The position numbers and the translations under genes were made by a program. A stretch of DNA of 64,000 nt from Mumia sp. zg.B17 (GTDB lineage: Bacteria > Actinomycetota > Actinomycetes > Propionibacteriales > Nocardioidaceae): NCBI RefSeq assembly GCF_019550915.1, contig NZ_JAHWCI010000009.1, forward strand, positions 1-64,000, read 5' to 3'. Under the pieces are notes generated by a model that had not been told where the DNA came from, did not search any database, and worked only from the letters and a program-made list of their open reading frames with translations. Of the stretch, positions 3 to 23,604 are shown piece by piece (position 1 is the first letter of the stretch; every line of letters begins with the position of its first letter).

Positions 3-548
3 ATGACGAGACGATGGATGCGCATCGGCGCAGTAGCGGCAGGGTCCGTCCTGGCCGTCGGCATGGTGCCGACCGCAGCACAGGCGGCGACCACCGACGT
101 GAAGGACCCGCGCGGCGATGCCCCGCGGGTCGCCGACATCACGAAGCTGCGGGTCAAGAACGGCGATCACCGCGTCAGCGGTGTGCTGACGATCCCGAAC
201 CGCAACAAGAAGAAGCTCGCGATCACGGAGCTGAACATCAAGACCCGTGACAGCGGCCGCTGGGCCTACATCGTCTCGGTCAAGCGCAACCGCCAGGGCG
301 CGGTGACCGACAAGTCCCTCGGCTGGCAGCGCGGTGACGATCCGAGCAGTTACACACCGCTGCCCTGCAGCGGGATCACGACGTCCTGGAACGGCAAGAA
401 GACGACCATCTCGGTGCCCGTCCGCTGCCTGACCAAGACGACCCGCCCGCGCGTCAAGGTGCGTGCCGCGATCATCGCCCGCGTCGGCGAGGGTCACGAC
501 TGGTACGACGAGCGCACCCGCTACAGCCGCTACGTCAAGCGCGGCTGA
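3..548 (+). CDS. Secreted protein of unknown function
   Basis: The 181-residue product begins with a typical Sec signal peptide: a positive N-terminus (MTRRWMR), a hydrophobic core, and a probable AQA-A cleavage near residue 28. The mature part is rich in Lys, Arg, Thr and Val and looks like a small all-beta domain. It holds two cysteines (in LPCSG and VRCL) that could form a disulfide outside the cell. No catalytic motif was recognised and no function is proposed. The ATG lies at the very edge of the window, so promoter and ribosome site cannot be seen; the good signal peptide argues that this is the true start. It converges on the VOC gene across a large palindrome. Confidence 0.75.
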   Translation: MTRRWMRIGAVAAGSVLAVGMVPTAAQAATTDVKDPRGDAPRVADITKLRVKNGDHRVSGVLTIPNRNKKKLAITELNIKTRDSGRWAYIVSVKRNRQGAVTDKSLGWQRGDDPSSYTPLPCSGITTSWNGKKTTISVPVRCLTKTTRPRVKVRAAIIARVGEGHDWYDERTRYSRYVKRG

Positions 549-556
549 CCTCTCCT

Positions 557-621
557 CCCCGATGTGTGCAGAACATCCAGGATCTCGGGCGTAAGACCTG
601 GATGAACTGCACACATCGGGG
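557..621. terminator. Nested palindrome between convergent genes, family member 1
   Basis: Perfect 15-base outer arms (CCCCGATGTGTGCAG at 557-571 and its complement at 607-621) enclose 8-base inner arms (CATCCAGG at 574-581, CCTGGATG at 597-604), an AA/AA internal loop and a 15-base apical loop. It lies 9 bases after the stop of the upstream gene and 17 bases from the stop of the opposing gene. Folded RNA from either strand would be a long hairpin, so a bidirectional terminator is the simplest role. The right edge reads CGGGGACGG, as in the two elements near 10.8 and 15.1 kb. Confidence 0.7.
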
Positions 622-638
622 ACGGAACGCCCGCGACG

Positions 639-1328
639 TCAGGCGCGGTCGAGCGATCGCCTCAGGTCGGCGACCGCCTCCTCGATCTCGGGGGTGAGGG
701 GGTGGTCGCCAAGCTCGTCCAGGGTGCGGGCCGCAGCCTCGGGGTCGTCGGCGCGGACCCAGAGCTCGGCGAGGTAGGCCAGCGCCTGCACCCGGTCCTC
801 GATGGGACTCGCCTCGTCCTCACGGCGGATCGCGCCGGCGAGCAAGGTCGCCGCCTCCGCCGGGTCACCGTTCGAGTCGGCGAGCACCACCGCGTACGCG
901 TACGCCGTCGCGAGCCGGCTCTCCTCCATGACGGGCTCCGCGATGCCGCGCGTGAAGCGGACCGCGTTGCCGCCCGGGTCGATCAGGCTGAATCCCGAGA
1001 GGCCGCGGGCGTTCTCGCGCAGGCGCGGTCGCGTGATCCGGGGGACACCGGACATCGGGAGCGTGTCGTAGCGCTCACGCAACCCGGCCGCGATCGCCTC
1101 GAACCACGGCTCGGTGTCGTCGACCAGGACGACGCACGTCCCGTACGAGCCGTCGGGATCGAACCCCTCCACGCCGAAGTAGTGGAGCTCCAGGCCGTCG
1201 CGCTCGACGGCGACGTACGGGTTGGGGCTGGACTGGCGAAAGGTCGTGGTGAACCCGAGGGCTTCGTAGAAGTCGGTGATGTCGTCGATCGAAGGGCAGG
1301 GCAGCAGCGGGATCGCGCGGACAGACAT
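639..1328 (-). CDS. VOC (glyoxalase/bleomycin-resistance fold) protein with helical C-terminal extension
   Basis: Residues 1 to about 128 match the vicinal oxygen chelate fold: a beta-strand start (RAIPLLPCPSI), FYEALGF, and a second half ending LIDPGGNAVRF. The remaining 100 residues are almost entirely helical, with TPR-like periodicity (AYAYAVVLADSNGDPAEAATLL, then AYLAELWVRADDPEAAARTL). A plain VOC protein is about 120-140 residues, so this is a two-part protein. The substrate is unknown; members bind small electrophiles, antibiotics or metals. The start is ATG with TACGCT 6 bases upstream and no Shine-Dalgarno sequence, suggesting a leaderless transcript separate from the leucine operon. 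Confidence 0.8.
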   Translation of the reverse strand: MSVRAIPLLPCPSIDDITDFYEALGFTTTFRQSSPNPYVAVERDGLELHYFGVEGFDPDGSYGTCVVLVDDTEPWFEAIAAGLRERYDTLPMSGVPRITRPRLRENARGLSGFSLIDPGGNAVRFTRGIAEPVMEESRLATAYAYAVVLADSNGDPAEAATLLAGAIRREDEASPIEDRVQALAYLAELWVRADDPEAAARTLDELGDHPLTPEIEEAVADLRRSLDRA

Positions 1329-8247: not shown

Positions 8248-8373
8248 AGAGCCAACCGCGCTGCTTCGCCGCTAGAGCCAACCGCGCTGCTTCGCCGCTA
8301 GAGCCAACCGCGCTGCTTCGCCGCTAGAGCCAACCGCGCTGCTTCGCCGCTAGAGCCAACCGCGCTGCTTCGC
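8248..8373. repeat. 26-bp tandem repeat, about 4.8 copies, derived from the 3' end of the regulator gene
   Basis: Units begin at 8248, 8274, 8300, 8326 and 8352; the last matches for 22 bases before joining unique sequence. The unit contains CAACCGCGCTGCTTCGCCGC. The right-most copy is the coding end of the regulator (minus strand, AAKQRGWL and the TAG stop); the four other copies lie beyond that stop. They differ from the gene copy by a synonymous change (GCG for GCT). The array fills most of the gap before the oxidoreductase gene. It has the form of a VNTR made by replication slippage, not a CRISPR: there are no spacers. Confidence 0.95.
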
Positions 8374-9318
8374 AGCGACCCCGAGCTGGAGCCGCGTCTC
8401 CACCTCAGCCCGCTCCATCAGCCGACTCATGCGGCGCTGCACCGTCCGGGCCGAGAGGCTGAGCTGGTTCGCCACCTTGTGGTCGGTGAGGCCGGCGTTG
8501 AGGAGGCGGAGGATCCGTGCGTCGGTGTCGTCGAGCCCGGCGGCCCTCGCGTCACCGGACTGGCTCTCGAGCAGCGGCGAAGCGCCGGCCCACATCCCTT
8601 CGAACAAAGCGATCAGGCTGTCGAGAAGTCCGCTCCGGTGCACGATCAGCGCTCCGCCGGACAGGTCGTCCGGCGAGGCCATCACCGGCACCATCGCGAT
8701 CTCGGAGTCGACCACCAGCAGCCGCGACGGGAGCGCAGACGCGAGCCGGACGTCCATGCCCTCGCCGTCGTGGAAGTCCGAGAGCGAGTTGGGACGGTCG
8801 AGGACCGCACGCTCGGCGAGGATCCGGAACCGTACGCCGCGCTCGACGGCGCGCCGCTCCTCGACGAAGCCGTACTCCGACGACGTCAGCTTCGTCGTAC
8901 GCACCGACAGGCGGACTTCTCGCCGTGCGGCGCGGACGAGCTGCTTCACGCGCTGCAACCCCGCGTCCCGGCCCGGCACCAGGTCGACCAGGTCGGAGGC
9001 GGTGCGATCGTCGGCGGCCTTTCGATAGAGGTCGTTGAGGCGCTCGAGCTCGATTTCGGCACGGCGCAGCCACCGCTGGCGCTCGACGATCAACGAGCCG
9101 AGGGCGACCGTCGGCGGAGACGCGGTGAAGTGCTCCTCGGTGCCGTCCACGTGACGGCCGACCAGCCCGCGCTGCTCGAGGGAGGAGAGGTAGGCGCTCA
9201 CGTCGGCGACCGGCATCCCCACCACGTCGCCGAGGTCGCCCGGTGTCGCGCTCGCGACCTCCACCAGCGTGCGATAGAGGTCGTACTCGTCGGGGCTCAG
9301 CCCTAGGACTTCCAGCAC
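8350..9318 (-). CDS. TrmB-like/LuxR-type transcriptional regulator
   Basis: A regulator of about 322 residues with three parts. Residues 1-75 form a winged helix of TrmB type (LGLSPDEYDLYRTLV, then PVADVSAYLSSLEQRGLV). A middle domain resembles the phospholipase-D-like sensor seen in such proteins (EVRLSVRTTKLTSSEYGFV, RGVRFRILAE). The end is a LuxR-type helix-turn-helix (DDTDARILRLLNAGLTDHKV, LSLSARTVQRRMSRLMERA). Two DNA-binding modules at opposite ends are seen in some actinobacterial regulators. The GTG at 9318 has GGAGGG 4 bases upstream; a GTG at 9333 would add 5 residues. Its C-terminal codons are the source of the adjacent tandem repeat. It probably controls the downstream oxidoreductase. 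Confidence 0.8.
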   Translation of the reverse strand: MLEVLGLSPDEYDLYRTLVEVASATPGDLGDVVGMPVADVSAYLSSLEQRGLVGRHVDGTEEHFTASPPTVALGSLIVERQRWLRRAEIELERLNDLYRKAADDRTASDLVDLVPGRDAGLQRVKQLVRAARREVRLSVRTTKLTSSEYGFVEERRAVERGVRFRILAERAVLDRPNSLSDFHDGEGMDVRLASALPSRLLVVDSEIAMVPVMASPDDLSGGALIVHRSGLLDSLIALFEGMWAGASPLLESQSGDARAAGLDDTDARILRLLNAGLTDHKVANQLSLSARTVQRRMSRLMERAEVETRLQLGVAAKQRGWL

Positions 9319-9487
9319 GCGACCCTCCCTCACTGCGGTTCGATGCGTGATCGTCCCACGTGATCTTGCCGATATCCGGCGGATTTGTGGGAAAACTGGT
9401 GCCGGTTCACACGATCTCGACCTTGCGAGCCCTCGTTCGGAACGAGATCCGTGTCGTTTTCATGCCACGGCTTGATTATGCCATTCC

Positions 9488-10277: not shown

Positions 10278-10814
10278 ATGACCGACGCACCCCTGCTCCG
10301 CACCATCGCCGGCACCAGCCCCAGCCTCGATCCCACCTCGTACGTCGCGCCCACCGCGGTCCTGACCGGCAGCGTGACGCTCGGCCCGCAGGCCAGCGTC
10401 TGGTACGGCGCCGTGCTGCGGGGCGACAACGCACCGATCACGATCGGCGAGCGCAGCAACGTCCAGGACGGGTGCGTCTTCCACGTCGACACGGACAAGC
10501 CTGTCACCCTCGGCGCCGGCGTCTCGGTCGGGCACCGCGCCGTGCTGCACGGCTGCACGGTGGAGGACGACTCGCTGATCGGGATGGGCGCCGTGGTGCT
10601 CAACGGGGCACGGATCGGGGCGGGCTCCATGGTCGCCGCCGGCGCCGTCGTCCTCCAGGACACCGACGTCCCGCCGGGGTCGCTCGTCGCCGGGGTCCCC
10701 GGCAAGGTGCGCCGCCCGCTGAGCGACGAGGAGCGCGAGGGCCTCAAGGTCAACGCCAGCAACTACCTCGCACTGACCGAGCTCCACCGCGACGCGGGCC
10801 CGTCCCCGTTGTGA
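10278..10814 (+). CDS. Gamma-carbonic anhydrase family protein (left-handed beta-helix)
   Basis: A 178-residue hexapeptide-repeat protein. Repeating turns such as VLTGSVTLGPQASVWYGAVL and ARIGAGSMVAAGAVVLQDT build the left-handed beta-helix. Three histidines sit where gamma-class enzymes bind zinc between trimer subunits: FHVDTD near residue 72 and VGHRAVLHG near 90-95. The length matches the short CaiE/YrdA/PaaY-like group (170-200). Some members are true carbonic anhydrases and PaaY is a thioesterase-like member linked to phenylacetate loci; this copy lies far from the paa genes. Its last four codons lie inside the nested palindrome at 10802, so the terminator and stop codon overlap. Confidence 0.9.
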   Translation: MTDAPLLRTIAGTSPSLDPTSYVAPTAVLTGSVTLGPQASVWYGAVLRGDNAPITIGERSNVQDGCVFHVDTDKPVTLGAGVSVGHRAVLHGCTVEDDSLIGMGAVVLNGARIGAGSMVAAGAVVLQDTDVPPGSLVAGVPGKVRRPLSDEEREGLKVNASNYLALTELHRDAGPSPL

Positions 10815-10870
10815 AGGGTTGCGGTCGGTTTCTGCTGCTGAAACCGACCTGAAGTCTTCACAACGGGGAC
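10802..10870. terminator. Nested palindrome between convergent genes, family member 2
   Basis: Outer arms GTCCCCGTTGTGAAG (10802-10816) and its exact complement (10856-10870); inner arms GGTCGGTTT (10823-10831) and AAACCGACC (10841-10849); loop CTGCTGCTG. The stop codon of the carbonic anhydrase gene (10812-10814) is inside the left arm, and the M14 peptidase gene ends 17 bases to the right. An almost identical copy lies at 15089. Likely a bidirectional terminator; it lacks a U-tract. Confidence 0.75.
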
Positions 10871-10886
10871 GGGGCGGAGCGACGCG

Positions 10887-13541
10887 CTACTGCAGGAGGC
10901 GACCGCTGGAGGAGAAGGCCGGCTGCAGCTTGCGCAGCTGGGTCTTGTTCACCTCCGCAGCGGGGCCGCCGTACACCGCGTTGTAGAGCAGGTTGAACGA
11001 CGAGCGCGGGAGCGACCGGAAGGTGATCTCGCTGCCGTACGTCACGACCTTGCCCTTGCCGACGTCGAACGACACGACGTTCGCCGCGCCCTCGATGTAG
11101 TCCTCACCCTTGAGATATCCGCTCGCAAGGACGTCGGACTGCGGGTAGGTCGACACGACGTCGGCCTTCTTGCCCGTCGGCTTCCACGCCTGCGTGTTGT
11201 AGAGCCACACCGGCCACTTCTCCGGCATCCCCCACGCGACCATGTCGGACGTGTCGAACTCGTGGTTGAGGAGGCTGCCGCCGGTGGCGAAGACGTCCTG
11301 GTCGGTCGGCAGAGCCGGCTCGATCGGCAGGTCCAGCAGCTCCTTCGCCGTCGCGACCGAGCTGCCGATCGCGAGCAGCGTGCCGCCCTGGCGGACGAAC
11401 TGCCGCAGCTTCTTCCAACCCGCCTCACCGACGCCGTACGCCCACGCGAACTCCTCGTCGTAGCGCTCCTGGTCGAGCCCGTCGACGATGCGCGCCTTGG
11501 AGATGCCCTGCGGCAGGACGATCGTGTCGTAGACGTCGATCAGCCGACCGGTCTGGAAGTCCTGGGCACCCACGACCTCGTAGTTGATCTTGTACTGGTC
11601 CAGGAGCCACATGTCCCAGCCGCCCGGCATGTTGTTCGCCCCACGCAGCAGGCCGACCCGCGTGCGCGGCTTGAGCTGGATGCCCTTGACGTTCGGCGCG
11701 GTCGCGACCGCCGTCACCGGGACACCGACCTTCTTGGTCGACGTCGCGAGGACCGAGCGCGCCTGCGGCGTCGCCGGGACCACGTACGTGCCCGCCGGGT
11801 ACGTCGTGCCGGCGGCGGCGAACTCCTTGCCGGCCCGGAAGGTCGTGATGTTCGCCTTCTGCAGCGCCGACACGACCTGGATCGTGCCGTACGACTCCGG
11901 TCGTACGAGGTACGCACCCGAGGCGCCCGGCGCTGCCGGCATCGTCACGGTCGGGACCTCGACGGACGTCACGCGCTCGAGCTGCGCGTCGACGGCACCC
12001 TTGACCTCGTCCACCGCGACGCCCAGCTGCAGCGGCAGGCTCGTCGTCGCCTCGGCGTACGGAAGGTCGTCGGTCGGGTAGGTGTCCTTGCCGAGCACCT
12101 GGTCGACCCAGTTGCCGCGCGGCTGCCTGGTCTTGATCACGTGCGACCCGGCGGCGTACTCCTTGCCGCCCGCAGTGAACGGGGCGGTCGCCCGATGGAT
12201 CTCGACCTGCGTCCAGTCGAGGCGCTCGAGCATCTCGTACGTCGCGAACGGGTCGCGCTGCTCGGCATCGACGACGTAGGCCTCGACACCGGACTTCACG
12301 CCGTTCTCCATGTACTCCTGCGGGACGGCGAAGAGGTTGTCGTAGAGCAGCTTCTCGCCGTTCTGCGCGACGTACTCCATGCCCGCGTAGGTGGCGGTGC
12401 TGGCGTACTCGACGATGTCCTTGAGCGTCCAGGTGTCCTTCTCGTACGGCTCGATCAGCGCCTGCGTCGGCACCTGCGGGCCCAACGGCTTGCCGTCGTT
12501 CGACTTCTGCGGGTAGGCGAGGTCGGTGGCGGACGCGATCTCGGTGAGGTATGCGCCGGTCCCGGTGAACGGGAAGAACCCGACGGGCTGCTCCAGGGTC
12601 CAGAAGATGTGGTAGTCGAGCGACCCGACACCGGACTTGCCCTCGGCGGCGAGCTGGCGAGCCGCGTGCTGCCCGACGACCGCGCTCGAGGCGTTCATGT
12701 TGGGCGGCACGTTGGCGCTCGTCACGCCCCCGTACGGCGGGACGAAGATGCGCTCCCCACCGTTGCCCTGCTGGTGCATGATGTGCGTCATCACCGGGCG
12801 GTACTTCTTCTCCAGCTCGAGCCGGTACTGCGCCTCGACCTGGGTGAACATCGTCCAGTCACGGTTGTCGTCGTGCCCGGTGTACTTGTGGTAAAGATCC
12901 GGGTACGTCCGCGCGAGGTCGGTGCCTGCGGTCCGGTTGAAGTGGTCGACCACCAGGTGCTGGCCGTCAGGGTTCTGCGACGGGACCAGCATGATCACCG
13001 AGTTGTTGAGCACCTCCTCGGTGAAGTCGGAGTCCTCGGTCGCGAGCCGGTGCACGATGTCGTTGATCGCCTGGCCGTTGCCGACCTCGGTCGAGTGGAT
13101 CGTCGCCTCGAGGTGATAGATCGGGACGCTCTCCCGGGCCAGCGCCTTGGCCTCGGCCTCCGAGGTGGAGCGCGGGTCGGAGAGCTTCTGGCTGGCCGCG
13201 ACGATCTCGTCGAGCCGCTCGAGGTTCTTGGGTGCGCTGATGAAGACGGTGGCGTACTCGTTGCCCATCGTCGTCTCGCCGACCGTCTCGTAGTCGACCC
13301 GGTCGGACTGCTTGGCGATGGTCTTCATGTAGTCGAGGACGTCGGGGTACGCCGCGAGCTTCCCCTCCGTCCCCATCTCGAACCCGAAGAACTCCTCGGG
13401 CGTCTCGATGCCGTCCGCGGCGGCCGGCAGGGTGATCCGGTACGGCGCCTCCGCGGTGGCGGAGGACGCGACCAGGCTGGTTCCGAGCAAGGAGACCGAC
13501 GCCGTCACGACGGCGGCGGAGAGCAATCGTCTGTGTCTCAT
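10887..13541 (-). CDS. Secreted M14-family zinc carboxypeptidase
   Basis: An 884-residue exported peptidase. The signal peptide is MRHRRLLSAAVVTASVSLLG, cleaved near ATA-EAPY. The M14 catalytic domain follows, with the zinc ligand pair HSTE in EATIHSTEVGNG near residue 148, the substrate-binding NPDG motif and DNRDWTMF, and the third zinc ligand in HIMHQQGNGG near residue 255. The C-terminal 500 residues are not a standard carboxypeptidase part and include a class-I glutamine-amidotransferase-like region typical of large actinobacterial M14 proteins (GVGEAGWKKLRQFVRQGGTLLAIG). It would digest proteins or peptides outside the cell. The ATG at 13541 was chosen because it exposes the signal peptide; the longer frame has none. 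Confidence 0.88.
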   Translation of the reverse strand: MRHRRLLSAAVVTASVSLLGTSLVASSATAEAPYRITLPAAADGIETPEEFFGFEMGTEGKLAAYPDVLDYMKTIAKQSDRVDYETVGETTMGNEYATVFISAPKNLERLDEIVAASQKLSDPRSTSEAEAKALARESVPIYHLEATIHSTEVGNGQAINDIVHRLATEDSDFTEEVLNNSVIMLVPSQNPDGQHLVVDHFNRTAGTDLARTYPDLYHKYTGHDDNRDWTMFTQVEAQYRLELEKKYRPVMTHIMHQQGNGGERIFVPPYGGVTSANVPPNMNASSAVVGQHAARQLAAEGKSGVGSLDYHIFWTLEQPVGFFPFTGTGAYLTEIASATDLAYPQKSNDGKPLGPQVPTQALIEPYEKDTWTLKDIVEYASTATYAGMEYVAQNGEKLLYDNLFAVPQEYMENGVKSGVEAYVVDAEQRDPFATYEMLERLDWTQVEIHRATAPFTAGGKEYAAGSHVIKTRQPRGNWVDQVLGKDTYPTDDLPYAEATTSLPLQLGVAVDEVKGAVDAQLERVTSVEVPTVTMPAAPGASGAYLVRPESYGTIQVVSALQKANITTFRAGKEFAAAGTTYPAGTYVVPATPQARSVLATSTKKVGVPVTAVATAPNVKGIQLKPRTRVGLLRGANNMPGGWDMWLLDQYKINYEVVGAQDFQTGRLIDVYDTIVLPQGISKARIVDGLDQERYDEEFAWAYGVGEAGWKKLRQFVRQGGTLLAIGSSVATAKELLDLPIEPALPTDQDVFATGGSLLNHEFDTSDMVAWGMPEKWPVWLYNTQAWKPTGKKADVVSTYPQSDVLASGYLKGEDYIEGAANVVSFDVGKGKVVTYGSEITFRSLPRSSFNLLYNAVYGGPAAEVNKTQLRKLQPAFSSSGRLLQ

Positions 13542-13718
13542 GTGCTGCCCTTCCCACGTAACCCGCCGCGGGTCCGCGGCGAGGTGGCCCCACGTTAAGG
13601 AGCATTCACGTCGACGGGCGCCGCTCGATTGTTCGGGATTGTGCCGACTTAGCAACAACACGCGGTCCGCGTGCGGACACCGGTGGCGCGCGGCTGCCAC
13701 GCACGCTAAGAATTCGTC

Positions 13719-15077
13719 ATGGGAGGAAGGCATCGTCGACCGGTCACCTCGATGCCTGCCGCGGAGATCGCCGCAGGCGTCACCGAACCGTCCGCCCGCG
13801 GCATCGCCGACCACGTCGCCGGACTCATCCGACAGGGCGTGATCGCCGACGGCTCACGGCTGCCCACCGTCCGTGCAACGGCTGCCGCGCTGCAGGTCGG
13901 TGCGACCACGGTCGCCACCGCCTGGACCCTCCTGCGCCACGAGCGCCTCGTACGCTCCGACGGGCGCAACGGCACCTTCGTCCGTGACCTCAGCCTTCCG
14001 GTCCCCGAGCCCGGGCTCCCTCCCGAGCTCCCGGTGAGGATCGACCTCGTCGCCTCGGCGTACGACGTGGACCTCCTCCCGGATCCCGCGCCTCACCTCC
14101 TCGCGGCCGCCGAAGGTCTTGCCTGGCACCAGTTCGAGAGGAGCGAGGTCGACGGCGACCTCGCTCGGATGGCGGTCGGCAGCTGGCCGTTCGTGCCCGA
14201 CGGCCTCGCGGTCGCCTGGGGATTCGCCGACGCACTCGCCCAGCTCGCGGCCCTCGTCGTCCGTCCGGGCGACCGGGTCGTCGTGGAGTCGGCGTGCTCG
14301 CCGGAGACCCAGGCGGTCCTGACGGCGGTCCGCGCGCAGATCGTCCGTGTGCCGTGCGACGCCGCGGGCATGCTGCCCGACGCGCTCGCACGTGCTCTCG
14401 CGACGCGCCCGAGCATGGTGGTCACCCAGCCGCGGATGGCCGACCCCCTCGCGCACCACGTCACCGACGAACGCGCTCGTGACCTTGCCGCGGTCCTTGC
14501 CGAGCGGGAGGTGCTGATCGTCGAGGAGGACACCGCGGCGTGTCTCGCCGCCGGGCCTGCGGGGTCGGTCGGCAGCTGGTTGCCGGACCAGACCGTGCTC
14601 GTCCGGGGCTACCAGCGCTCGCACGGGCCGACCGTACGGATGGCGGTCGTCGGGGGAGCCTCCGCCGTCGTCGACCGGCTCCGCGCACGCCAGGACATCA
14701 CCGGGTCGTTCCCACCGCTGGTCGCCCAACGGACCCTGGCGCTGATGCTCGGTGACCTGGGCGTCCAGGAGATGGTCGCGCGGGCGCGCTGGCGGTACGC
14801 GCGACGGTGGCACGCCCTGGCGCGGGCGCTGCGGCACCGGGGTCTCGCGGTGCCCGGCGTCGACGGTCTCGCCCTGTGGGTACGGGTGCCGGACGGCCCG
14901 GCGGCCCTGCGGCGCCTGGCGCGGTCGGGGATCCGCGCGCGGCTGGGAACCGAGGCCGCCGGCCCTGCTGAAGGGTCGCGCCACCTCCGCCTGGCGACGG
15001 TCGGCCTGCGCTTCGAGCACGACGCCGTCGCCGAGCTGGTCGCGTCCTGCGGGCGTGATCACCGCAGCGCGAGCTGA
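13719..15077 (+). CDS. MocR/GntR-type regulator lacking the PLP lysine
   Basis: A 452-residue fusion of a GntR winged helix (GIADHVAGLIRQGVIADGSRLP, then TAAALQVGATTVATAWTLLR) with a fold-type-I aminotransferase domain. MocR proteins normally hold PLP on a lysine in an S-K-x-x-x-P-x-x-R-x-G type motif; here the equivalent is YQRSHGPTVRMAVV, and the whole protein contains no lysine. It therefore cannot form an internal aldimine and may sense a ligand without PLP chemistry. Start: ATG at 13719 (possibly leaderless, TAAGAA 6 bases upstream); ATG at 13752 is an alternative, although the GGAGGAAGG after the first ATG is poorly spaced for it. The target is unknown; the nearest genes are the M14 peptidase and the nucleoside operon. 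Confidence 0.8.
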   Translation: MGGRHRRPVTSMPAAEIAAGVTEPSARGIADHVAGLIRQGVIADGSRLPTVRATAAALQVGATTVATAWTLLRHERLVRSDGRNGTFVRDLSLPVPEPGLPPELPVRIDLVASAYDVDLLPDPAPHLLAAAEGLAWHQFERSEVDGDLARMAVGSWPFVPDGLAVAWGFADALAQLAALVVRPGDRVVVESACSPETQAVLTAVRAQIVRVPCDAAGMLPDALARALATRPSMVVTQPRMADPLAHHVTDERARDLAAVLAEREVLIVEEDTAACLAAGPAGSVGSWLPDQTVLVRGYQRSHGPTVRMAVVGGASAVVDRLRARQDITGSFPPLVAQRTLALMLGDLGVQEMVARARWRYARRWHALARALRHRGLAVPGVDGLALWVRVPDGPAALRRLARSGIRARLGTEAAGPAEGSRHLRLATVGLRFEHDAVAELVASCGRDHRSAS

Positions 15078-15088
15078 CTCTCGCTCCC

Positions 15089-15157
15089 GTCCCCGTTGTG
15101 AAGGGTTGCGGTCGGTTTCTGCTGCTGAAACCGACCTGAAGTCTTCACCACGGGGAC
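15089..15157. terminator. Nested palindrome between convergent genes, family member 3
   Basis: Same sequence as the element at 10802 over 69 bases except one base (C for A at 15149), which makes a single mismatch in the outer stem. The inner arms (15110-15118 and 15128-15136) and the CTGCTGCTG loop are identical. It starts 11 bases after the MocR stop, and its right arm encodes the last codons and the stop (15145-15147) of the opposing NmrA-like gene. Confidence 0.75.
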
Positions 15158-15996
15158 GGGGCGGACGGGGCGCGGCCGGTGAGCGCCCGCACCTCCTCGG
15201 ACACCGCCTCCCAGCGCCGCTGGCGGATCGAGGCGAACAGCGACGCGTACGCGTAGGTCCACCACGGGTCCTCCCCGCTCGCGGCGAGCTCGGCACCGAA
15301 CGTCGTCGGGGGGACGTCGACGTACGAGACCGGCGTGCCCCAGGCCCGCTCCGCAACCTCGGCCACCTCCGCCATGCCGAGCGCCACCGGCCCGGTCACG
15401 TCGTGGGAGCGCCCCGTCGGCGTCGTCGCCAACGCGGCCAGGCAACGCGCCACGTCGTCTCGCGAGACCAGGGACACCTGCGCGTCGCCAGCGGGAAGCC
15501 GCAGCTCGCCGGACGGTCTCGCTCGCGCCACGAGACCGGCGAAGAACTCGGTGAAGATCGACGCACGCACGACCGACAGCCCACGGCCCGTACGGGCGAG
15601 CAGCTCCTCCGTCGTGCCGTTGGTGTAGGCGTAGCAGAACGGCGAGGAGAGGTCGACGTCCAGACCGGAGAGATACACGACGTGCGCGACGTCCGACGCC
15701 ACGATCGCCTCGACCACGTTGCGGTGGTGCGTCATCATCCGCGCCGCCTCGCCGTCGCTCGAGACGAAGACGAGCGTGTCGACGCCGACCAGCGCCGTCC
15801 GCAGGGAGTCGGGATCGTCGTAGTCAGCGTGGACGGACTGGACCTTCCCACCCCCGTCGTACGCCGGGGTGCGGGCGAGGGCGACCACCTCGTGCTCGGC
15901 GCTGCCCGCCAAGGCGCGCACCACCTGCCCACCGAGACGGCCGGTGGAACCCGTCACCGCGATCCGCGAGCGGGTCGCGGTGACGGGCGGCGACAT
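15145..15996 (-). CDS. NmrA-like NAD(P)-binding protein (atypical SDR)
   Basis: A 283-residue Rossmann protein. The dinucleotide motif is IAVTGSTGRLGGQVVRAL near residue 12-30, followed by an NmrA-like pattern (ADYDDPDSLRTALVGVDTLVFVSS) and VVYLSGLDVD; there is no Tyr-x3-Lys pair typical of active short-chain dehydrogenases. Relatives include NAD(P)H-sensing regulators and quinone-reductase-like proteins (QorB type). The ATG overlaps the permease stop by one base (TGATG), so it is the third gene of the nucleoside operon and probably translationally coupled. Its role with a phosphorylase and a nucleobase permease is unclear. The 3' end runs into the palindrome at 15089. Confidence 0.8.
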   Translation of the reverse strand: MSPPVTATRSRIAVTGSTGRLGGQVVRALAGSAEHEVVALARTPAYDGGGKVQSVHADYDDPDSLRTALVGVDTLVFVSSDGEAARMMTHHRNVVEAIVASDVAHVVYLSGLDVDLSSPFCYAYTNGTTEELLARTGRGLSVVRASIFTEFFAGLVARARPSGELRLPAGDAQVSLVSRDDVARCLAALATTPTGRSHDVTGPVALGMAEVAEVAERAWGTPVSYVDVPPTTFGAELAASGEDPWWTYAYASLFASIRQRRWEAVSEEVRALTGRAPSAPSPW

Positions 15997-18558: not shown

Positions 18559-20991
18559 TTGAGACGTCTCAGCACTGCACTCGTCACCCTCGGCGTCGCG
18601 GCCTCGTTCGGCGCCGTCTACGCCGCACCAGGATCCGCCGAACCCGCTCCGCCGGTCACCGCTGCGGACCGCACCGGCAAGGCCCACGAGCTGCCCAACC
18701 CGCTCGAGGACAAGCGACGGGCTCTCCGCGAGGAGGCCATCACGTCGGTCGTCAACGGCGAGGCGAAGCCCGTCACCAAGAACGGCTCCAAGGTCGTCAA
18801 GGTCGGCAAGTCGTACGCGCCCGCCGACGCCGCCGCCCAGAAGACCAAGAAGGGCCGCAAGGCCCTCGCAGCGGCCAAGGGCCCCAAGGCCCAGAAGCAG
18901 GACCAGTACGTCGAGCTCTCCCAGGAGCGGGCCGACAAGGTCTTCGTCATCCTCGCCGAGTTCGGCGACCAGCGTCACCCGGACTACCCCGACGACGGCT
19001 GGGACGACTTCGACCCCGACGTCGCCGAGCCGCAGCGCTTCGACGGCCCGCTGGTCAACCAGATCCCCGAGCCCGACCGGACCAAGGACAACTCCACGGT
19101 CTGGCAGCCGAACTACGACCGCCAGCACTACCAGGACATCTACTTCGGCGACGGCAAGGGCGACGAGTCGGTGAAGACGTACTACGAGGCGCAGTCCTCG
19201 GGTCGCTACACCGTCGACGGCACCGTGTCGGACTGGGTGAAGGTCCCGTACAACGAGGCGCGCTACGGCCGTACGACCGCTGACGAGAACGGCGATCCCG
19301 ACGAGTCCAACGCGTGGGAGCTGATCCGCGACGCCGTCACAGCGTGGGTCGCGGACCAGGAGGCCCAGGGCCGCACGGACGCCCAGATCAAGGCCGACCT
19401 GGCGTCGTACGACGAGTACGACCGCTACGACTTCGACGGCGACGGCAACTTCAACGAGCCCGACGGCTACATCGACCACTTCCAGATCGTGCACGCCGGT
19501 GGCGACGAGGCCGACGGCGACCCGATCTACGGCGGGGACGCCCTGTGGTCGCACCGCTGGTACGCCTTCGGCACCGATGCCGGACTCACCGGACCCGAGC
19601 AGAACCCGCTCGGCGGCGCCGAGATCGGCGACACCGGCTTCTGGGTCGGTGACTACACGCTGCAGCCGGAGAACGGCGGACTGTCGGTCTTCGTCCACGA
19701 GTACGGCCACGACCTCGGTCTTCCGGATGCGTACGACACCTCCGGCAAGGGCGACAACTCCAACGAGTACTGGACGCTGATGGCGCAGAGCCGCCTCAAC
19801 GACGCCGGCGAGCCGCTCGGCACGCGCCCGGGCGACCTCGGCGCGTGGGAGAAGCTCCAGCTCGGCTGGCTCGACTACGAGGCGGTCGGCTACAAGCAGT
19901 CCAAGAAGCTCGACCTCGGCCCGCAGGAGTGGAACTCCGACAAGGCCCAGGGTGCGGTCGTCGTGCTGCCCAAGAAGCGGGTCGAGCTCAACAACGGCGC
20001 TCCGGCGTCGGGTCAGAACCAGTTCTTCTCCGGCTCCGGTGACGACCTGGCGAACTCGATGACGACGGAGATCGACCTCACCGGCAAGGCGTCGGCCGCC
20101 TTCACGGCCAAGGCCCGGTTCTCGATCGAGGCAGGCTACGACTACGCGTACTTCCAGGCGTCCACCGACGGCGGGAAGACGTGGAAGGCGCTCGCCGGCA
20201 CGATCGACGGGGCTGCGTACGGAACCGACTCGTCGGGCACCCCGGCGCTGTCGGGCGAGCACCCCGCCTGGGGCAACGTCTCCGTCCCGCTCGACGCCTA
20301 CGCCGGCCAGAAGATCCTCTTCCGGTCGTACTACAAGACCGACGGCGGTCTCGCCAAGGCCGGTCTGTTCCTCGACGACATCGTGGTGACTGCCGACGGA
20401 GCCACGATCCTCTCCGACGGCGCCGAGAGCGGTGCCGGCCCGTGGACGTTCGTGGGCTACAGCATCGTCGCCGCGACGACGTCGCGGGACTACGACAACT
20501 ACTACGTGATGGGCCACCGGTCCTACGTCGGGTACGACAAGTACCTGCAGACCGGCCCGTACAACTTCGGCTTCATGAACACCAAGCCGGACTGGGTCGA
20601 GCACTACCGCTACGGCCAGGGCCTCCTCATCTCGTACTGGGACACGTCGGTGCGTGACAACAACACGACCGACCACCCCGGCCAGGGCCGCAACCTGCCG
20701 ATCGACGCCCACCCGGAGCCGATCATCAACATCGCGACCGGCGCCCCGTGGAGGGCTCGCATCCAGGTCTACGACGCGCCGTTCGGGCTCATCAAGGCCG
20801 ACTCGATGACGCTGCACACCAACGGCAAGCCCAGCTACATCCGGGCACAGCCGGCGCAGCCGACCTTCAACGACACCAAGAAGTACTGGTACGCCGAGCT
20901 CCCGAGCCACGGCGTCAAGCTGCCTGCGGTGGGCGTGAAGATCAAGGTGCAGAAGCAGGAAGGCACCTCGATGAGGATCAAGATCAACTGA
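18559..20991 (+). CDS. Secreted M6 metalloprotease (immune inhibitor A family), copy 1
   Basis: An 810-residue exported zinc protease. Order: signal peptide (MRRLSTALVTLGVAASFGAV), propeptide-like region starting with a conserved ELPNPLEDKRRALREEAI segment, M6 catalytic domain with the zinc motif HEYGHDLGLPD near residue 379, then a carbohydrate-binding-like/MAM-like beta domain and the C-terminal LQTGPYNFGFMNTKPDWVEH region. Aspartate-rich DFDGDGNFNEPDGY may bind calcium. The start is a TTG in both copies: SD-like AAGGGGAG is 6-10 bases upstream, and it exposes the signal peptide; an upstream TTG at 18538 would add 7 residues. It is followed by a tandem paralogue. Likely role: degradation of extracellular protein. 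Confidence 0.9.
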   Translation: MRRLSTALVTLGVAASFGAVYAAPGSAEPAPPVTAADRTGKAHELPNPLEDKRRALREEAITSVVNGEAKPVTKNGSKVVKVGKSYAPADAAAQKTKKGRKALAAAKGPKAQKQDQYVELSQERADKVFVILAEFGDQRHPDYPDDGWDDFDPDVAEPQRFDGPLVNQIPEPDRTKDNSTVWQPNYDRQHYQDIYFGDGKGDESVKTYYEAQSSGRYTVDGTVSDWVKVPYNEARYGRTTADENGDPDESNAWELIRDAVTAWVADQEAQGRTDAQIKADLASYDEYDRYDFDGDGNFNEPDGYIDHFQIVHAGGDEADGDPIYGGDALWSHRWYAFGTDAGLTGPEQNPLGGAEIGDTGFWVGDYTLQPENGGLSVFVHEYGHDLGLPDAYDTSGKGDNSNEYWTLMAQSRLNDAGEPLGTRPGDLGAWEKLQLGWLDYEAVGYKQSKKLDLGPQEWNSDKAQGAVVVLPKKRVELNNGAPASGQNQFFSGSGDDLANSMTTEIDLTGKASAAFTAKARFSIEAGYDYAYFQASTDGGKTWKALAGTIDGAAYGTDSSGTPALSGEHPAWGNVSVPLDAYAGQKILFRSYYKTDGGLAKAGLFLDDIVVTADGATILSDGAESGAGPWTFVGYSIVAATTSRDYDNYYVMGHRSYVGYDKYLQTGPYNFGFMNTKPDWVEHYRYGQGLLISYWDTSVRDNNTTDHPGQGRNLPIDAHPEPIINIATGAPWRARIQVYDAPFGLIKADSMTLHTNGKPSYIRAQPAQPTFNDTKKYWYAELPSHGVKLPAVGVKIKVQKQEGTSMRIKIN

Positions 20992-21225: not shown

Positions 21226-23604
21226 TTGAGACGTCTCAGCACGGCACTCATCACCCTCGGCATGGCGGCCTCTTTCGGGGCCGCCTTCGCGTCACCGGGA
21301 ACGGCGTCCTCGGCGCCCCCGGTCAACGCGGCCGCCACGACCAGCAAGGACCACGAGCTCCCCAACCCGCTCGAGGACAAGCGACGGGCTCTCCGCGAGG
21401 AGGCGATCACCTCGGTCGTCAACGGCGAGGCGAAGCCCGTCACCAAGAACGGCTCCGAGGTCGTCAAGGTCGGGACGTCGTTGTCGCCGGCCGACGCCGC
21501 CGCCCAGACCACCGTGCGTGGTCGTGAGGCACTCGCCGACGACGGGGACCACGACCAGTACGTCGAGCTGTCGCAGGAGCGGGCCGACAAGGTCTTCGTG
21601 ATCCTCGCCGAGTTCGGCGACCAGCGTCACCCGGACTTCCCCGACGACGACTGGTCGCGCTACGGCACGGTCAAGCCGCAACGGTTCGACGGGCCGCAGG
21701 TCAACCAGATCCCCGAGCCGGACCGCACCCAGGACAACTCCACGAACTGGCAGCCGGACTACGACCGTCAGCACTACCAGGACATCTACTTCGGTGAGGA
21801 CCAGGAGTCGGTGAAGACGTACTACGAGGCGCAGTCCTCGGGTCGCTACACCGTCGACGGCACCGTGTCGGACTGGGTGAAGGTCCCCTACAACCAGGCC
21901 CGCTACGGTCGCGTCACCGCCAACACGTGGGACCTCATCCGTGACGCGCTCACCGCCTGGGTCGCCGACCAGCAGGCCAAGGGGCGCACCGACGCGCAGA
22001 TCAAGGCCGACCTGGCGTCGTACGACGTCTACGACCGCTACGACTTCGACGGCGACGGCGACTTCAACGAGCCCGACGGCTACATCGACCACTTCCAGAT
22101 CGTGCACGCCGGTGGCGACGAGGCCGACGGCGACCCGCTCTATGCGGGAGACGCGATCTGGTCGCACCGCTGGTACGCGTTCCGGACCGACGTCGGCAGC
22201 ACCGGCCCTCCGCAGAACCGGCTCGGGGGCACCCAGATCGGCTCGACCGGCATCTGGGTCGGCGACTACACGATCCAGCCCGAGAACGGTGGTCTGTCGG
22301 TCTTCGTCCACGAGTACGGCCACGACCTGGGTCTGCCCGACGCCTACGACACGACCAGCAAGGGCGACAACTCCAACGAGTACTGGACGTTGATGGCGCA
22401 GAGCCGACTCAACGGCGCCGGCGAGCCGCTCGGCACCCGTCCGGGCGACCTCGGCGCGTGGGAGAAGCTCCAGCTCGGCTGGCTCGACTACGAAGCCGTC
22501 GCCTCCACGCAGACCAAGCGGCTCGACCTCGGCCCGCAGGAGTGGAACTCCGACAAGGCCCAGGGTGCGGTCGTCGTCCTGCCCAAGAAGCCCGTCGAGG
22601 AGAGCAACGGTCCGGCGCCCACCGGCACCAAGCAGTTCTGGTCCGGGTCGGGCAACAACCTGGAGAACGCGATGACCACCGCGATCGACCTGACCGGCAA
22701 GACGTCGGCGAGGTTCGATGCGAGGGTGCGCTTCTCCATCGAGAAGGGCTACGACTTCGCGTACTTCCAGGCGTCCACCGACGGCGGGAAGACCTGGACG
22801 TCGCTGCCTGGCACGCTCGACGCCAAGCCGTACGGGACGGACACCGACGGCAACCCGGCGCTCGACGGCAACCACCCTGCGTGGGGGCCGGTCACGGTGC
22901 CGCTCGATGCGTACGCGGGCCAGAAGATCCTCTTCCGGTCCTCCTACACGACCGACGCCGCGACCGTGGGCTCCGGTCTGTTCCTTGACGAGATCGCGGT
23001 GACCGCGGACGGGGCGACCGTCCTGTCCGACGGGGCCGAGAACGGTGCCGGGCCGTGGACGTTCAGGGGCTACAGCATCGTCGGCGCGACCACGACGAGG
23101 GAGTACGACAACTACTACGTGATGGGCCACCGGTCCTACGTCGGCTATGACACGTACCTCCAGACCGGCCCGTACAACTTCGGCTTCATGAACACCAAGC
23201 CGGACTGGGTCGAGCACTACCGCTACGGCCAGGGGCTGCTCATCTCGTACTGGGACACGTCGATCGCCAACAACAACACGACCGACCACCCCGGCCAGGG
23301 CCGCAACCTGCCGATCGACGCCCACCCGGAGCCGATCATCAACATCACCACCGGGGCTCCGTGGCGGGCTCGCATCCAGGTCTACGACGCACCGTTCGGT
23401 CTGATCAAGGCCGATTCGATGACGCTGCACACCAACGGCAAGCCCAGCTACATCCGCGCACAACCGGCTCAACCGGTCTTCGACGACACCAAGAAGTACT
23501 GGTACGAGGAGCTGCCGAACCACGGCGTCAAGCTCCCCGCCGTCGGCGTCCGGGTGAAGGTCCTCCAGCAGGAGGGCACCTCGATGAGGATCAGGGTCAA
23601 CTGA
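21226..23604 (+). CDS. Secreted M6 metalloprotease (immune inhibitor A family), copy 2
   Basis: A 792-residue paralogue of the preceding gene with the same domain order: signal peptide (MRRLSTALITLGMAASFGAA), ELPNPLEDKRRALREEAI region, catalytic HEYGHDLGLPD near residue 362, and a nearly identical C-terminal 250 residues. It differs mainly by missing the lysine-rich KTKKGRKALAAAKGPKAQKQ insert after residue 90 and by short deletions in the YGRTTADENGDPDE region. Long stretches are identical at DNA level, which suggests recent duplication or gene conversion. The start was set at TTG 21226 by analogy and by the AAGGGGAGAG ribosome site. Two copies with separate promoters may be regulated differently. 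Confidence 0.9.
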   Translation: MRRLSTALITLGMAASFGAAFASPGTASSAPPVNAAATTSKDHELPNPLEDKRRALREEAITSVVNGEAKPVTKNGSEVVKVGTSLSPADAAAQTTVRGREALADDGDHDQYVELSQERADKVFVILAEFGDQRHPDFPDDDWSRYGTVKPQRFDGPQVNQIPEPDRTQDNSTNWQPDYDRQHYQDIYFGEDQESVKTYYEAQSSGRYTVDGTVSDWVKVPYNQARYGRVTANTWDLIRDALTAWVADQQAKGRTDAQIKADLASYDVYDRYDFDGDGDFNEPDGYIDHFQIVHAGGDEADGDPLYAGDAIWSHRWYAFRTDVGSTGPPQNRLGGTQIGSTGIWVGDYTIQPENGGLSVFVHEYGHDLGLPDAYDTTSKGDNSNEYWTLMAQSRLNGAGEPLGTRPGDLGAWEKLQLGWLDYEAVASTQTKRLDLGPQEWNSDKAQGAVVVLPKKPVEESNGPAPTGTKQFWSGSGNNLENAMTTAIDLTGKTSARFDARVRFSIEKGYDFAYFQASTDGGKTWTSLPGTLDAKPYGTDTDGNPALDGNHPAWGPVTVPLDAYAGQKILFRSSYTTDAATVGSGLFLDEIAVTADGATVLSDGAENGAGPWTFRGYSIVGATTTREYDNYYVMGHRSYVGYDTYLQTGPYNFGFMNTKPDWVEHYRYGQGLLISYWDTSIANNNTTDHPGQGRNLPIDAHPEPIINITTGAPWRARIQVYDAPFGLIKADSMTLHTNGKPSYIRAQPAQPVFDDTKKYWYEELPNHGVKLPAVGVRVKVLQQEGTSMRIRVN

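Follow-up and report, generated by a model that had tools for sequence, protein, structure and literature searches.

Palindromes bracketing a gene for a DNA-binding nuclease suggest a self-spreading DNA of undescribed kind in Actinobacteria

Bacterial genomes commonly contain dispersed palindromes, whose spread is in the best-known proposal ascribed to RAYT transposases. In the REP/RAYT "REPtrons" of Proteobacteria, the gene of a Y1 (HUH) tyrosine transposase is flanked by two copies of a palindrome, further solo copies are dispersed through the genome, mostly at the 3' ends of genes in tandem or convergent arrangement, and the palindromes are gene- or genome-specific with compensating changes in their stems (PMC2817692, PMC3733652). 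REPs measure 20-40 nt and carry an unpaired GTAG/CGTC tag at the palindrome end, and those of the CGTC type are stated to be without a dedicated enzyme (PMC3733652). Two groups of proteins are also relevant here. EDxHD homing endonucleases such as I-Bth0305I join a nuclease domain with conserved acidic and histidine residues to a separate DNA-binding part, the target of I-Bth0305I being nearly 60 bp long (PMC3943268). AbiEi antitoxins of type IV toxin-antitoxin systems, including Rv2827c of M. tuberculosis, have a two-domain fold, bind inverted repeats and regulate their own expression (PMC7319586). Their genes share an operon with that of a DUF1814 (AbiEii) toxin.

The palindromes described here, from Actinomycetota, have REP/RAYT as their closest working analogue, and each of the traits just listed for REPtrons recurs in them except the enzyme: the partner gene encodes an AbiEi-DUF559/Vsr-like nuclease instead of a Y1 transposase. 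They fall outside that class also by their greater length (about 50-100 nt), by the lack of an unpaired GTAG/CGTC tag and in that one and the same locus may carry the full cassette or a solo palindrome. With I-Bth0305I the partner protein shares a nuclease fold, as judged from a structural model, conserved acidic and histidine residues, a separate putative DNA-binding part and, in the length of the palindromes, a comparable putative target. Unlike such homing endonucleases, its DNA-binding part is of predicted AbiEi fold, its gene lies in neither an intron nor a phage gene, palindromes flank it and occur as dispersed solo copies, and phage records gave no match (plasmid records gave three weak ones). 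With AbiEi antitoxins it has the modelled two-domain fold in common. Unlike them, it is fused to a nuclease, its palindromes stand on both sides of the gene and elsewhere in the genome, and no toxin gene lies between the palindromes of the cassette on contig C6, where the gene finder places a single gene. A link of DUF559 with palindromes, inverted repeats or AbiEi was not found in the open-access literature, outside which most subscription journals lie.

The window (the whole stretch of DNA analyzed, 64,000 nucleotides of Mumia sp. zg.B17) contains three members of the palindrome family (Table 1). A sequence-only reading had pointed out two near-identical elements at 10802-10870 and 15089-15157, one base apart and at the ends of unrelated convergent gene pairs, and direct reading of the sequence confirmed this: the sole difference is A at 10862 against C at 15149, and both lie between convergent genes with unrelated products. 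The copied unit is, however, 80 nt long (10799-10878 and 15086-15165, 99% identity), and the palindrome itself 75 nt. Both have the outer arms GTCCCCGTTGTGAAG/CTTCACAACGGGGAC, the inner arms GGTCGGTTT/AAACCGACC and the loop CTGCTGCTG. Predicted RNA folding gave -57.5 and -53.3 kcal/mol for palindromes 1 and 2 (z -10.6 and -8.8), with none of 200 shuffles as stable as either. The reported overlap with coding sequence was likewise borne out at both copies, palindrome 2 encoding the last NmrA-like codons and palindrome 1 supplying the TGA stop (10812-10814) of the hexapeptide-repeat gene. In four other Mumia genomes (G004, G005, G002 and G001) the latter gene has its own stop ahead of the intergenic element, and this native stop is absent here. 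A direct repeat (GCGACGCG) around palindrome 1 is an isolated case. The third member has convergent neighbors at 18-548 (+) and 639-1328 (-). No Rfam model matched window positions 10700-15300.

Table 1. Palindromes of the family in the window and the genes around palindromes 1 and 2.
Feature	Position	Strand	Remark
Third family member in window	552..626		stem CCCCGATGTGTGCAG, subfamily of the C6 DUF559 cassette
Hexapeptide-repeat (gamma-carbonic-anhydrase-like) gene	10278..10814	+	ends inside palindrome 1
Solo palindrome 1, 75 nt (copied unit to 10878)	10799..10873		stem GTCCCCGTTGTGAAG...GGTCGGTTT; holds the stop codon of the upstream gene
M14 zinc carboxypeptidase-like (M14 peptidase) gene	10887..13526	-	3' end toward palindrome 1
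GntR/aminotransferase-type regulator gene	13719..15077	+	3' end 8 nt from palindrome 2
Solo palindrome 2, 75 nt (copied unit to 15165)	15086..15160		one mismatch against palindrome 1
NmrA-like gene	15145..15996	-	last codons encoded by palindrome 2

The two window copies belong to a much larger and diverged family. A DNA similarity search placed their next relatives in the same genome at 72-79% identity, with none closer and with diverged members on contigs C12, C5 and C9. A covariance model was built from 12 own-genome palindromes, in which 54 cells had changes on both sides of a pair, against a shuffled mean of 28. This model retrieved at least 52 strand matches in the own genome, or about two dozen sites or more, since one palindrome scores on both strands and strand matches are thus about twice the sites; the five other Mumia genomes yielded at least 35-113 strand matches each. 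At least 22 own-genome sites had E < 2e-11, in agreement with the earlier idea of a dispersed REP-like family settled at gene ends. That only two copies might exist genome-wide therefore holds for the near-exact element and is contradicted for the diverged family by the similarity and covariance searches alike. The pattern GTCCCCGT-N25-55-ACGGGGAC, a form of the one proposed for finding further members, retrieved the two window copies and one chance-like match (the reversed pattern matched once per strand) and missed the diverged family. Among Mumia palindromes the outer arms are mostly of the type CCCGTCC[CG]CG[AT]T, while the inner stem splits into subfamilies. The CGTC within these stems is paired, and it is absent from most stems of other genera.

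The key feature of the family lies outside the window, and in this respect the sequence-only reading is incomplete: the palindromes are paired with an AbiEi-DUF559 nuclease gene. Of the relatives found first, two flank a DUF559 gene, and across the genus most DUF559 genes lie between two long hairpins whose stems match. Among 80 DUF559 loci of the taxonomic family, surveyed over 7 kb on each side, long hairpins peaked within 250 bp of the gene (34 upstream and 34 downstream, against 0-3 per bin elsewhere), with the end of the upstream hairpin typically about 58 nt ahead of the start codon and the start of the downstream hairpin 0-14 nt after the stop. When the 5' and 3' flanks of the same gene were compared (local alignment score of at least 30), they matched in 50 of the 80 DUF559 genes of the taxonomic family versus 1.1% of mismatched gene pairs, and in 55 of 80 named loci (Mumia, Aeromicrobium, Nocardioides, Microbacteriaceae and an Acidothermaceae MAG; a set whose genomes overlap in part with the former) versus 0.8%. 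Phylum-wide the flanks matched in 13 of 30 genes (12 of 29 without the own genome) versus 0.1% of mismatched pairs, and neighboring control genes of similar length gave no match (0/262). Thus the arrangement recurs across Actinomycetota, so that a REP-like or mobile family, as first proposed, stands, while its restriction to this lineage does not. Since about one third to one half of the homologues have no matched flanks, the palindrome is not obligatory for the gene.

In the presumed autonomous cassette of about 1.1-1.2 kb, a gene of some 305 codons is preceded by a palindrome about 60 nt away and followed, after some 10 nt, by a matching one. Stems are specific to gene and genome, and outside Mumia they mostly differ, with GATTTG and its variants in 16 of 78 palindromes against 0.6 expected. 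Across 70 cassettes, the similarity of palindromes did not follow that of proteins significantly (Mantel rho 0.07), the exception being pairs above about 70% identity, and the N-terminal, middle and C-terminal parts of the protein were equally weak predictors. For 44 of 77 solo sites, the cassette that best matched the stem was one of the same genome (mean 13 and maximum 37 in 1000 permutations of the labels). For the two window copies the own genome contains no exactly cognate cassette, the best being a diverged cassette on C9 (score 18). As separate observations, a third AbiEi-DUF559 homologue of this genome (L028/L083, G000:C11:43926-44873) has a 3' palindrome only, of a different stem (GCGATTCGGTGAGGAGATCGGGAGTT), beyond which its reading frame seems to continue, and a fourth lies at C12:533045-533857. 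A second palindrome-bracketed gene at C9:445.2-447.2 kb was set aside as a partner; it is sigma-factor-like by look and its bracketing looks fortuitous.

Solo copies have a marked preference for the ends of genes. With genes called by a codon-usage-based gene finder, the 77 solo sites of the six Mumia genomes comprised 33 between convergent genes, 34 between tandem genes, 1 between divergent genes and 9 within predicted genes. The median distance to the nearest stop codon was 9 nt. Adjacent gene pairs without a site served as background (n=265; 42 convergent, 161 tandem, 62 divergent). Against these, the 68 intergenic sites were enriched in convergent junctions (33/68 vs 42/265, p 7e-8) and depleted in divergent ones (1/68 vs 62/265, p 3e-6), as the sequence-only reading had anticipated. 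Such placement is what would be seen if the palindromes were strong bidirectional terminators kept between convergent genes, with DUF559 genes often inserting at terminators; the predicted folding energies of both strands (-47 to -57 kcal/mol) agree with this, as does the presence of an unrelated hairpin (G002) or a repeat array (G001) at the site of palindrome 1. However, neither window palindrome has a U-tract or a terminator-like site, which speaks against the bidirectional terminator proposed at first in its intrinsic form, while termination without a U-tract may still occur. This explanation also leaves unaccounted for both the matched palindromes around one gene family versus none around 262 other genes and the genome-specific stems, and we regard it as improbable. 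A mobile element fits the window palindromes better than a terminator does, though there is no general target-site duplication.

The partner protein of about 305 residues appears from its AlphaFold model (36 sequences, pLDDT 95.4) to consist of an AbiEi-fold part (residues 1-181) and a nuclease part of the Vsr/I-Bth0305I (EDxHD) type (residues 184-290). Specifically, the modelled N-terminal part aligned with AbiEi 6y8q (Z 11.9, 173 residues aligned, rmsd 5.9) and with Rv2827c (Z 9.0, rmsd 4.1), and, of four proteins, two matched PADLOC AbiEi models in this part at E 1e-18 to 1e-21 and the others more weakly. The C-terminal part matches DUF559, and in the model it aligned with the catalytic domain of I-Bth0305I (Z 12.3, rmsd 2.4) and with Vsr (Z 10.2, rmsd 2.2); a search of the PDB by sequence gave no match. 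Residues E189, D222, E233, D235, H239 and D249 are invariant in 36 of 36 sequences, as would be expected of an active nuclease.

Among the Mumia loci compared, 25 pairs of solo sites from two species coincided in position, and shared positions far exceed what independent insertion at random gene ends should give. Despite the common position, only in 9 of 50 comparisons was the other genome's nearest member the palindrome at the orthologous site. For 23 of 25 pairs a match closer than the shared-site partner was available within the own genome, a value that is indicative only since it is a maximum over many. Mean stem similarity within the genome exceeded that at the shared site weakly and not significantly (18/25, p 0.25), several subfamilies being present in each genome. 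The site of palindrome 1 holds family palindromes of their own, differing stem types in G004 and G005, and that of palindrome 2 is empty in G004 and has a different-stem palindrome after the GntR gene in G002. We also observed, at the site of palindrome 1, a different repeat array in G001 (TGGTTGAGCGAGC...GTCGAAACC; L186 5667-5958) and an unrelated GGTTGAGCCTGTCGAAACC hairpin in G002 (L185 5720-5797), which perhaps represent a further family of dispersed palindromes in Actinobacteria.

Full cassette and solo palindrome alternate at two orthologous loci, a pattern that gain and loss fit alike. At the C6 locus five species have the cassette and G005 has one palindrome exactly there, while at C10:430581 the own genome has one palindrome and G005 and G002 have cassettes of different subfamilies. 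Both flanking palindromes of the C6 cassettes have changed together in most of the five species. Such swaps of stem at fixed positions amount to concerted change with a candidate driver that can be named. The C9 cassette (L076, G000:C9:201241-202375) has a clean empty site in G004. Outside both its palindromes is a 12-bp direct repeat (CGCTCAGCCGCC), the lone case found that resembles a target-site duplication. Over 31 cassettes and 77 solo sites there was no clear excess of target-site duplication (mean shared word 4.3 vs 3.9).

Many of these observations could also be reconciled with palindromes that are operators or chromosome-organizing sites of an AbiEi-like regulator with a nuclease tail, co-evolving by selection and without copying. 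AbiEi proteins regulate themselves through inverted repeats (PMC7319586), there is a palindrome some 60-130 nt upstream of the gene, stem pairing is kept by compensating changes and many positions are common to several species. A regulator's site is not expected, however, in a matching palindrome directly past the stop codon, and the solo copies lie at 3' ends instead of promoters (1/68 divergent). Each of two dozen sites per genome would need many stem changes on both arms, and the full/solo alternation at orthologous loci and the invariant catalytic-type residues count against this explanation as well. We therefore consider it unlikely, though less so than the terminators.

Taken with the matched flanks, the pairing of gene and palindrome, the solo copies at gene ends and the species-specific stems at shared positions point to another reading: the window elements are probably solo members of a dispersed palindrome family that has a nuclease gene as its partner and spreads in a REP/RAYT-like or homing-like manner. 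In the mechanism that we infer, the AbiEi-like part would bind the palindrome, the nuclease part would nick or cut it, and repair would then copy cassette or palindrome sequence between sites. Resident palindromes would thus be converted to the type of the resident nuclease, and new ones would sometimes be seeded. A hairpin just 3' of a stop codon may be tolerated there, with a possible extra role as a terminator. Conventional REPs or MITEs that a known transposase mobilizes would share with these elements the copy number and the placement at 3' ends (PMC3733652), and RAYT genes too are flanked by two REPs (PMC2817692). Yet the flanked gene is DUF559 and not a transposase, there is no general target-site duplication, and the own genome has no Y1/RAYT gene; with no PF01797 match in it, a RAYT/Y1 transposase was rejected as the mover, and we consider this origin very unlikely.

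Spread by way of the partner nuclease, our preferred reading, would make this a second, unrelated family of enzymes paired with palindromes, and would mean more than one origin of this life style. A testable function would also suggest itself for a group of DUF559 proteins that bear the label of unknown function, and a class of gene-end hairpins across Actinomycetota would be explained. More tentatively, and at somewhat less than even chances, we propose a class of selfish DNA in Actinomycetota in which the palindrome of an AbiEi-EDxHD fusion serves it as target and homology arm alike, so that the cassette is copied into solo sites and dispersed palindromes are rewritten to its stem type. If so, the palindromes of a genome would change together whenever the resident nuclease changes.

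Some minor observations concern other repeats and a further genus. A near-perfect palindrome of the family type (CGTTTTGGAGAGTTTGGGTCGGTTT...) overlaps or abuts the end of a gene in G013, a member of another genus (L025 1507-1566); this gene may resemble Wadjet JetD. Within the window, a 26-base unit (AGAGCCAACCGCGCTGCTTCGCCGCT) is repeated head to tail about five times over 8248-8377, at and past the end of the minus-strand gene 8350-9333, and the neighboring genes of about 2.4 kb at 18559-20991 and 21262-23604 have stretches that are 84-94% identical and represent a tandem duplication.
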